64,000 nucleotides of DNA, from NCBI RefSeq assembly GCF_014640155.1, contig NZ_BMGK01000002.1:196589-260588 (forward strand), read 5' to 3'. Below the pieces are notes generated by a model that saw only the letters and a program-made list of their open reading frames with translations, did not search any database and was not told the origin of the DNA. Position numbers and translations under genes: made by a program. Shown in pieces: positions 1,554-43,533 of this stretch. How positions within the stretch are numbered: position 1 is the stretch's first letter; each line of letters starts with the position of its first letter. The DNA comes from Planktosalinus lacus. Its GTDB lineage: Bacteria; Bacteroidota; Bacteroidia; Flavobacteriales; Flavobacteriaceae.

Positions 1554-1562
1554 TTTAGCCTA

Positions 1563-1775
1563 CACATATGTGACCCGCCTCTGGCGGGGTCAAAATGGAA
1601 TTCATGCTCTTTGCTACTACTACTACTACTACAACAACAAATATGTGACCCCGCTGGGGTCAAATTTAAATCGTTGCCCGTTGCTACAAAGATGTGACCC
1701 CGCTGGGGTCAAATTTGAATCGTTGCCTGTTGCTACAAATATATGACTCGCCTTTGGCGGGGTCGCATATATTTT
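1563..1775. repeat. Palindrome array R1 (GACCCC-GCT-GGGGTC family)
   Basis: Four units of about 50 bases each have an ACAAATATGTGAC-type left flank, a palindrome, and an AATCGTTGCCCGTTGCT-type right flank. Two palindromes are GACCCCGCTGGGGTC and two are the longer CGCC...GGCG form. An expanded TAC triplet run lies at about 1613-1631. This is the same family as the arrays at 17128, 22397 and 23478 but far from the transposase. It is not coding. Confidence 0.8.
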
Positions 1776-17113: not shown

Positions 17114-17127
17114 TTGTTCCATTTTTA

Positions 17128-17369
17128 TACAAATATGTGACCCGCCGGGGTCAGATTGAAATCATTGTTCTTTGCTACAAATATACGACCCGCCTCCGGC
17201 GGGGTCAGGGTGAAATTCTTGCTCGTTGCTACAAATATGTGACCTCGCTGAGGTCAGGTTGGAATTCTTGCTCGTTGCAGCTACAAATATGTGACCCCGC
17301 CGGGGTCAAATTGGAATCATTGTTCTTTGCTACAAATATACGACCCGACTTTGGCGGGGTCGGGGTCAG
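17128..17369. repeat. Palindrome array R2 (GACCCC-GCT-GGGGTC family)
   Basis: Five units share the CTACAAATATGTGAC left flank and the GGAATTCTTGCTCGTTGC right flank. Palindromes vary in step on both arms: GACCCGCCGGGGTC, GACCTCGCTGAGGTC, GACCCCGCCGGGGTC and two long forms. It lies just after wzm. Confidence 0.8.
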
Positions 17370-17602
17370 GTGGACTGAGTGATTGGTGACTACTTATTTT
17401 TACTAACACAAACCCCTAGTTACTAATCACTAGTTACTAGTTACTATTAACTGGTGGACTCCCTCCTTCGGTAAACCTTCGGAGGGTGAAAGTTGACTAA
17501 TAAACAAAATAATTGGTCAACTTTAATCAAATACATTCAACAAATTATCCCTTTAAAATTCGCCCCATTCGCATAAATTCGGATACATTCGGATCATTCG
17601 GA
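17370..17602. repeat. Heptanucleotide and composite repeats between wzm and cysN
   Basis: A CTAGTTA/CTAATCA unit run (about 17430-17450) pairs with GTGATTG/GTGACTA upstream. A copy of the composite GGTGGACTCCC...GGAGGGTGAAAGTTGACT element follows, then an ATTCGGAT-type run to 17600. There is no coding content. Confidence 0.6.
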
Positions 17603-22301: not shown

Positions 22302-22396
22302 TTATAAACGAATGTTTTTTTAGGGTTGATTTTGTCATCATTTTTGCAATAGGGCAAAAATGCCGCCAAAAGAGATGGAAGATGTTTTATCGTTTG

Positions 22397-22958
22397 TTAC
22401 AAAGATGCGACCCGCCTTTGGCGGGGTCAGGGTGGAATTCATGCTCTTTGCTACAAATATGTGACCTCGCTGAGGTCAGGGTGGAATCGTTGCTCGTTGC
22501 TACAAATATATGACCCCGCTGGGGTCATGTTGGAATTGTTCTTCTTTGCTACAAAGACCCCGCTGGGGTCAAATTGGATTTGTTGCTCGTTGCTACAAAG
22601 ATGTGACCTCGCTGAGGTCATGTTTGATTCGTTGTTCCTTGCTACTACAAAGATGTGACCCCGCTGGGGTCAGATTGGAATCGTTGCTCGTTGCTACAAA
22701 TATATGACCCCGCTGGGGTCATGTTGGAATTGTTCTTCTTTGCTACAAAGATGTGACCCCGCTGGGGTCAAATTTGGATCGTTGCTCCTTGCTACAAAGA
22801 TGTGACCCGCCTCCGGCGGAGTCAGGATGAAATCGTTGCTCGTTGCTAAAAATAGGTGACAGCTAATCCACGACCCCAGCGGGGTCGTATATTTGTAGAA
22901 AAACACCCCATATAAAACCGACCCGCCTGAGGCGGGTCGCATATTAAGGGGTGTTTCC
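22397..22958. repeat. Palindrome array R3, downstream of the IS200-like gene
   Basis: Nine head-to-tail units of about 49 bases have the palindromes GACCCCGCTGGGGTC, GACCTCGCTGAGGTC or longer CGCC-type forms. They are followed by a unit in reverse orientation (GACCCCAGCGGGGTC then GTATATTTGTAG). The array closes with a nested structure at about 22902-22958: outer arms AAACACCCC and GGGGTGTTT, inner palindrome GACCCGCC-TGA-GGCGGGTC. The transposase stop codon (22944-22946) lies inside this last hairpin. Confidence 0.85.
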
Positions 22959-23414
22959 ATACCATTCAAACAAATATTGCTCTTTGTATTCTATTTCAAA
23001 CTCTTTTAAAAACTCAATATATTCCTCTTTAAAACTTTTCTTCCTATGATGTTCTTTTTGATTCAACACATAGTTGACCACCGTATCAATATCTGAACGT
23101 TTATATGTAAATGCACCATAACCGGATTGCCATTGAAAAGGATAATTGCTGAATCTTCTTTCATTCATAAATGCATTTGAAGCCTTTTTTATTTCACGAA
23201 CCAGATCGGAAATGGAGTCGCTTGGATGTAAACCCAAGAAAATATGTATATGGTCAGGCATCCCATTAATTGCAAGCATTTTGTGTTTACGGTTTTGAAT
23301 AATGCCGGTGATGTATTTATACAATTCATCCTCAAAAGCAGAACGGATTAAAGATACTCTTCCCTGAACGGCAAAAACAATTTGGACGTATAATTGTGTG
23401 TATGTGTCAGCCAT
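22944..23414 (-). CDS. IS200/IS605-like HUH transposase (Y1, RAYT-like setting)
   Basis: This 156-residue Y1 transposase has the HUH metal motif MPDHIHIFLGL (His55, His57) and the catalytic Tyr115 in VVNYVLNQKEHHRKK. Length is normal for TnpA, so it looks intact. The family cuts single-stranded DNA at hairpins. It is bracketed by arrays R3 and R4 of one covarying palindrome family, and its stop codon lies in the last palindrome of R3. That setting is like REP-associated transposases, though the protein itself looks closer to IS200 TnpA. No tnpB or accessory gene is present. Confidence 0.9.
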   Translation of the reverse strand: MADTYTQLYVQIVFAVQGRVSLIRSAFEDELYKYITGIIQNRKHKMLAINGMPDHIHIFLGLHPSDSISDLVREIKKASNAFMNERRFSNYPFQWQSGYGAFTYKRSDIDTVVNYVLNQKEHHRKKSFKEEYIEFLKEFEIEYKEQYLFEWYGNTP

Positions 23415-23477
23415 CGATTATGATAAGGTCACATTGGTTTTATAAATTTATAAAAAATGTATCGTTTTTTAAATATT

Positions 23478-24032
23478 GTTGCTACAAATATGTGACCTCG
23501 CTGAGGTCAGATTGGAATTGTTGCCCGTTGCTACAAATATACGACCCCGCTGGGGTCATGTTGGAATTGTTCTTCTTTGCTACAAAGATGTGACCCCGCT
23601 GGGGTCAAATTTGGATCGTTGCTCGTTGCTACAAATATATGACCTCGCTGAGGTCGGATTTGAATCGTTGCCCGTTTCTACAAATATGTGACCTCGCTGA
23701 GGTCAGATTCGAATCGTTGCTCGTTGCTACAAATATGCGACCCCGCTGGGGTCGGATTTGAATCGTTGCTCGTTGCTACAAATATGTGACCTCGCTGAGG
23801 TCAAATTCGAATCGTTGCCCGTTGCTACAAAGATGTGACCCGCCTCTGGCGGGGTCAAATTCGAATCGTTGCTCGTTGCTACAAAGATGTGACCTCGCTG
23901 AGGTCATATTGGAATTGTTGTTCTTTGCTACAAATATTGACAGCTAATTCACGACCCGCCTTTGGCGGGTCGCATATTTGTAGTAGAACCCCCCGTATAA
24001 AGCCGACCCCGCCAGAGGCGGGTCGCATATTA
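23478..24032. repeat. Palindrome array R4, upstream of the IS200-like gene
   Basis: Nine forward units of about 49 bases alternate between GACCTCGCTGAGGTC and GACCCCGCTGGGGTC, with one long CGCCTCTGGCG form. Then GACAGCTAATTCACGACC starts an inverted unit ending GCATATTTGTAG, and a last palindrome GACCCCGCC-AGA-GGCGGGTC closes the array. The layout matches the end of R3. The array stops just before the rluF promoter region. Confidence 0.85.
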
Positions 24033-43285: not shown

Positions 43286-43533
43286 TTTTGGCAGATTGCT
43301 TCTCCGCCTCTGGCGGATCGCAATGACGCTTATGCCGCCAAAAAGATTTAAATTTTCAAATAGTTGACCCGCCTTTGACGGGGTCAGGGTCTTCAAAATT
43401 ATTATTTGAGCTACTAATAGTTGACTCCTCCGGAGTCACTTCTTATATTGCCATTAAGTTAGAATTCATCAAAGTTTCCGGGGTTTAATAATTAAAAATA
43501 ATAATTCAACCTTAAACCTTGAACCTAAAACCC
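43286..43533. repeat. Repeat-containing gap between guaA and the LysM gene
   Basis: It holds CTCCGCC-TCT-GGCGGA (about 43301-43318), GACCCGCC-TTTG-ACGGGGTC (about 43366-43385), GACTCC-TCC-GGAGTC (about 43424-43438) and an ACCTTAA, ACCTTGA, ACCTAAA, ACCCTTA run at a 7-base period (43503-43533). These are single members of the families seen as arrays elsewhere. Confidence 0.6.

Follow-up and report, generated by a model that had tools for sequence, protein, structure and literature searches.

A REPtron-like association between a class 1 Y1 transposase and families of hairpins in Planktosalinus lacus and its relatives

The window, a stretch of 64,000 nucleotides, lies on contig C2 of the 2.97-Mb genome of Planktosalinus lacus, a member of class Bacteroidia judging by its relatives. 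It contains a gene for a Y1 (HUH) transposase, with one array of hairpins downstream of the gene and a second one upstream, between divergent genes (Table 1). We call the repeated hairpin A and a second hairpin, which has no TATAG, B. Hairpin A has a stem of 6–7 bp and a 3-nt loop, and is followed by the foot AT-g-TTTATAG; in the window CTACAAATAT precedes the hairpin, and the other orientation reads hairpin-nnATgTTTATAG. A preliminary description had reported about 18 units of roughly 49 bases around one Y1 transposase, and we counted nine on each side, spaced at 49 nt in the short-stem form and 54 nt in the long-stem form, with one unit of 44 nt (deletion at 22548). As it had also stated, both arrays end in an inverted unit and then a palindrome, the transposase stop codon lies inside one of these palindromes, and further arrays of the family stand without a transposase near 1563 and 17128 (we place their starts at 1559 and 17126). 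The outer nested stem that it gave to both ends exists only at the gene-adjacent terminal copy, where 22902–22909 pairs with 22948–22955. The pair of palindromes at 43357–43438 is likely a dispersed relic. The units do not form a CRISPR array: the segments between the hairpins are conserved from unit to unit and are not unique spacers.

Table 1 Features of the window. R1 is a covariance model of A units, described in the text.
Feature	Position	Strand	Basis or remark
Y1 (HUH) transposase gene, 156 aa, subclass 1.2 motifs	22944..23414	-	Y1_Tnp profile and motifs
Array 1, nine A units of 49–54 nt each, downstream of gene	22396..22844	+	CTACAAA-n-AT foot, then hairpin
Array 1, inverted terminal A hairpin, foot ATATTTGTAG on 3' side	22871..22900	+	R1, 42.8 bits
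Array 1, terminal B palindrome (22919–22939) within outer stem AACACCCC/GGGGTGTT	22902..22955	n/a	contains transposase stop codon 22944–22946
Array 2, nine A units, upstream of gene	23481..23926	+	unit alignment and R1
Array 2, inverted terminal A hairpin, long-stem form	23952..23985	+	unit alignment and R1
Array 2, terminal B palindrome (24005–24025) plus CATATT	24005..24031	n/a	follows the inverted A hairpin
Gene-free array, four A units, family of arrays 1 and 2	1559..1768	+	R1
Gene-free array, five A units, family of arrays 1 and 2	17126..17378	+	R1
Weak, degenerate relic hairpin, single R1 match (E 0.005)	43357..43438	-	second imperfect palindrome ~50 nt off

The transposase matches the Pfam Y1_Tnp profile (E 2.6e-24). 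Its length of 156 residues and its motifs (HuH, DHIH; W, WQ; Y, YVLNQKEHH) agree with the definition of TnpA-Y1 subclass 1.2 (DH[IV]H, WQ, Y---Q--HH / YIKNQKEHH, ~150 aa; PMC6006769), as does its low copy number of one intact gene and one relic in the genome. The residues H55, H57, W95, Q96, Y115, Q119 and H123 are invariant across 52 homologues. An AlphaFold2 model (pLDDT 93.5) is nearest to the structures of the ISDra2 and IS608 TnpA, followed by E. coli TnpA-REP (4er8). The protein does not belong to the RAYT/TnpA-REP class 2: it reads YVLNQ instead of Y---NP, and it scored 33.1 bits against the REP_Tyr_transpos profile, below the cut-off of 80. A tree built from 121 proteins places it in a 99-member clade (support 99/95), from which nine IS200-side proteins are set apart by a long branch, with bootstrap values that are not fully settled. 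Calling the protein IS200-type, as the preliminary description did, is correct in that it passes the NCBIfam IS200 profile cut-off, but its subclass 1.2 motifs, the long-branch separation and the absence of TnpB, which we searched for in the window genome and did not find, mean that it is no typical IS200 transposase. The relic of a second Y1 transposase is decayed and interrupted by stop codons (C12:12540-12698, or L035:1041-1199; 51% over 53 aa), and no hairpins were found around it.

We then asked how widely the hairpins occur in this genome, using a covariance model of 44 A units trained on gene-adjacent units (R1). Its matches in the 2.97-Mb genome are confined to the arrays, apart from weak relics, with E values down to 3e-7, and a chance origin of the arrays is therefore excluded. 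One more gene-free array of A units, 52 kb upstream of the transposase gene (C2:166442-167136), repeats the architecture of the transposase locus: units, an inverted A, a B and more units. A related second palindrome family lies at C2:22051-22540 (B hairpin, ~50 nt, CTACAAATAG-hairpin), with a period of ~156 nt and no adjoining transposase. All of the ~35 copies that R1 found in the window genome are on a single contig, which suggests local spread of the units; in relatives, the palindromes are dispersed through the genome in multiple copies.

The arrays themselves carry traces of how they grew. For many units the best match is a unit in another array and not a neighbour, and blocks of two to three units recur: 22644–22790 is 95% similar to 23481–23627, 22742 and 23579 agree at 98%, and 22499 equals 22693 at 100%. 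These block similarities show that part of the growth is plain duplication; because the closest units are often in another array and blocks recur, transfer and block duplication probably both shaped the arrays. Near-identical blocks within and between arrays are what would be seen if the arrays were ordinary tandem repeats made by replication slippage and recombination, with the transposase as a chance IS-like arrival, and such an origin would also agree with the fact that most relatives have no tandem arrays. We nevertheless consider it highly improbable, since homologues from several phyla are accompanied by hairpins with this foot, at a density that falls away from the gene, and since a chance landing predicts neither this nor the A-B geometry, the genome-level association and the correlated divergence described below.

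Is it pairing or sequence that is kept in the stems? In an alignment of 34 units of the window genome, the two arms match in 97.8% of stem cells, and none of 500 shuffles reached the covariation score. Double changes here are mainly at one stem position (C-G 15, T-A 12), so the changes in step on both arms that the preliminary description saw within the window are real but thin. Across genomes the same claim is strongly supported: double changes occur at all seven stem pairs (83 cells; score 0.78 versus 0.25 shuffled), a count that is partly selected, since the alignment took only units with at least five paired bases. A foot-first test is not selected on pairing. Here we took every motif AT[GA]T[TC]T[AG]TAG that lies no more than 1 kb from the gene at 80 homologue loci; 87 of 141 such feet directly follow a perfect hairpin with 5 bp or more in its stem, compared to 3 of 141 on the mirror side. 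Stem variants include GACCCC, GATGCC, GGTGC, TTGCTCC and GCACTCC, and the forms that the preliminary description gave for the window (GACCCC/GGGGTC, GACCTC/GAGGTC, CGCC/GGCG) were confirmed. Because of the foot-first result we conclude that the stems retain their capacity to pair and vary freely in sequence.

These 80 loci are those of the best homologues in species-representative genomes. They come mainly from Bacteroidota, with Ignavibacteriota and Poribacteria also represented and other phyla contributing one record each. Palindrome families stand beside most of them. The density falls from 6.2 palindromes per kb in the 100 bp next to the gene to 4.3 at 100–200 bp, 1.1 at 400–700 bp and 0.25 beyond 2 kb, and neighbouring hairpins are ~50 nt apart. 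The geometry is fixed: in 96 of 97 units the distance between the loop centre and the start of the foot is exactly 10 nt; out of 223 cases, 119 have B on the side of A where the foot is and 17 on the opposite side; and the A-B centre spacing is 48–54 nt in 117 of those 119. B is typically within about 100 nt of the gene's 3' end, and the nearest A is oriented to give mirrored pairs (A-B-gene-B-A) in 53 of 76 cases (p = 8e-4). On its two sides the gene has its own palindromes in inverted orientation, which is the arrangement of a REPtron. What is conserved across the phylum is an A-B pair ~50 nt apart; on this reading, the inverted unit and last palindrome at the ends of the window's arrays are the ancestral pair. 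The tandem units of long fixed spacing that the preliminary description noted do have their 49–54 nt spacing in the window, but the long arrays are a local elaboration of A. Seven IS200-side control loci (L141–L146, L148) gave no R1 match.

A group of relatives with shorter proteins (~138–145 aa; L050, L051, L152, L156, L158, L165 and L168–L170) lies mostly beside longer palindromes with TTTAAA-type loops, for example TCATAGCCCACGGTTTAAACCGTGGGCTATGA, and without R1 matches; these are possibly another palindrome type of subclass 1.2.

The position of B raises the question of whether the palindromes act at the RNA level (as bidirectional terminators, by stabilising mRNA or in autoregulation of the transposase) and not as substrates of transposition. 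A hairpin at the 3' end of a gene could end its transcript, and 18 terminator-like sites were scored where 1.5 were expected. The sequence conserved 3' of the hairpin, however, is TATAG at a fixed distance and not a T run; array 2 has divergent genes on its two sides, a setting that needs no terminators; Rfam gave no match; and the palindromes occur as mirrored pairs around the gene and, in other genomes, also far from it. We hold an RNA device to be an improbable account of the family, and a terminator or other RNA function may be a secondary role.

Among 149 Bacteroidia genomes, 60 have R1 matches, 91 have a homologue of the protein and 56 have a close homologue (E ≤ 1e-40). Elements are present in 47 of the 56 genomes with a close homologue and in 13 of the 93 without; the odds ratio of 32 (p = 1e-17, not corrected for the tree) is an upper guide, since genomes are not independent and training R1 on gene-adjacent units favours genomes with close homologues. 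The other 9 of the 56 yield no R1 match. Of four sister species, two carry elements without a detectable gene, with 7 (G003) and 11 (G004) matches as compared to 28–47 in gene carriers. The preliminary description had named equal presence of the arrays in genomes without the transposase as counting against its reading; the elements are not equally present there, and those that do occur in such genomes may be relics or may be served in trans. Protein and hairpin divergence correlate over 47 loci (Mantel r = 0.50, p ≤ 0.0005; 0.51 after G+C correction), part of which could come from shared vertical descent alone. A correlated divergence of RAYTs and REPs has been reported in Stenotrophomonas (PMC2817692). 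The likeness to REP/RAYT units and the tie to the transposase that had been proposed for the window are supported by gene-proximal enrichment, fixed geometry, co-occurrence and correlated divergence: a palindrome family of fixed design goes with this lineage of proteins.

Several observations bear on mobility. In the sister species G001, a homologue 77% identical to the window protein (L181:1837-2301) lies at an unrelated genomic place, between genes that resemble neuA and neuC as read from their open reading frames. We sought an empty site in sister species, and none could be demonstrated: the pseudouridine synthase is retained there and the neighbouring gene order is not. Gene-free scattered copies in relatives take the form of A-B pairs (G166) or A-B-B-A palindromes (G139, G085). 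A search for clean element ends at dispersed copies gave mixed results; in G166 (L202–L208), A-B pairs lie inside a dispersed element of ~130 nt with terminal inverted repeats ACGACAAAAATCC/GGATTTTTGTCGT, and the ends of this element are not those of the A-B pair.

The 77%-identical homologue reads PDHIPIFV, with the second HUH histidine lost and the frame open, and only three hairpins remain beside it. A second paralogue in the same genome (L182, contig C80; 49% identical) has a different hairpin family beside it on both sides, ACCCCTTTGGGGT, as expected for cognate pairs. In G002 (L187:12-1982), the gene and a two-family hairpin array occur twice in tandem (972 bp) at the end of a contig, and this duplication could be real or an assembly artefact.

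One reading of these observations is that the locus is an insertion sequence of the IS200/IS605 type, with hairpins as its ends, that transposes whole. The non-syntenic location in the sister species and the tandem copy of gene and array in G002 fit with this, as do the IS200 profile score and the nearest folds, those of ISDra2 and IS608. Yet the window genome has one intact copy and one relic, with no TnpB found; paralogues are divergent and not near-identical; the hairpins come in mirrored multiple pairs and in gene-free copies; and the tree separates the protein from IS200-side proteins. We regard transposition of the locus as a whole as very unlikely.

Taken together, we consider it probable that the locus is a REPtron-like system built on a class 1 (subclass 1.2) Y1 HUH transposase, with A units amplified locally. 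Since it stands among a hairpin family of its own both here and in dozens of relatives, the transposase most likely recognises, moves and multiplies that family. In the model for the family, one strand folded as a hairpin is bound, cut under the guidance of the sequence 5' of the hairpin and re-joined (PMC8266576). Here, the transposase would bind the A and B hairpins as single strands, as TnpA of IS608 and ISDra2 and TnpA-REP do; Tyr115 and the HUH metal site would make a cut close to the foot's conserved CTA, and the ends would be rejoined. Our guess for the cut site is the CTA that is invariant between B and A on the CTATAAACAT-hairpin strand. In this way A-B units would travel as non-autonomous elements of miniature size. 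The arrays of A that flank the gene and occupy nearby sites on the same contig would have arisen from many transfers among like units and from block duplication; tandem arrays would follow from units of ~50 nt being transferred next to like units.

A more specific proposal, to which we give somewhat less than even weight, is that the HUH-Y1 family contains on its IS200 side, in the form of subclass 1.2, a second REP-type system, organised independently and with a distinct foot code, CTAYAAAYAT. The A-B unit would then resemble the junction of right end and left end of a single-stranded transposon, and the transposase would excise and re-insert units of ~50 nt, building the arrays.

The association offers a substrate, and hence a testable function, for a transposase lineage whose role was unassigned and which had been listed without REP. 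It also means that REP-type palindromes with a different recognition signature exist and are missed by GTAG-based surveys. IS200 transposases can now be compared with domesticated RAYTs from the IS200 side, and the dozens of natural array units, varied in stem and foot, are a ready-made series of substrates.

Among known systems, the protein is closest to TnpA-Y1 subclass 1.2 as defined by Quentin et al. in 2018, with which it shares its motifs, a length of ~150 aa, low copy number and occurrence in Bacteroidetes. Subclass 1.2 was recorded there in Cyanobacteria and Bacteroidetes, at low copy and with 'no' in the REP column, in a survey that sought GTAG or GTGG 0–2 nt 5' of a hairpin (PMC6006769). 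The present hairpins have the foot CTAYAAAYAT and no GT[AG]G at this position, and a GTAG-based search could not detect them for that reason. Unlike in the published listing, palindromes are consistently associated with the protein here, which contradicts the 'no REP' entry, a property that was reported for the subclass but does not define it; in our literature search of open-licence papers, palindromes for subclass 1.2 were undescribed. IS200/IS605 elements (IS608, ISDra2) have the same fold, catalytic residues and hairpins near the gene, but the present system lacks near-identical multicopy insertion sequences and TnpB, and has mirrored multiple hairpins and gene-free copies. TIRYTs and TIRtrons (PMC3733652) likewise consist of a Y1 gene with flanking inverted repeats; they fall, however, mostly in class 2.1, and their terminal inverted repeats bear no relation to the hairpins described here (PMC6006769). 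The REPtrons of E. coli, Pseudomonas and Stenotrophomonas (RAYT/TnpA-REP with REP, BIME and REPIN; PMC2817692, PMC3116915, PMC8266576) share a lone, low-copy Y1 HUH gene between inverted cognate palindromes, dispersed pairs without a gene (here seen in relatives), palindromes that diverge in correlation with the protein, and a strand-asymmetric foot motif. They differ in that the protein here is of class 1 (Y-NQ--HH) and theirs of class 2 (Y-NP), that the foot here is the 10-nt CTAYAAAYAT in place of GT[AG]G, and that the palindromes here form A-B pairs of ~50 nt and, in the window genome, long direct tandem arrays.
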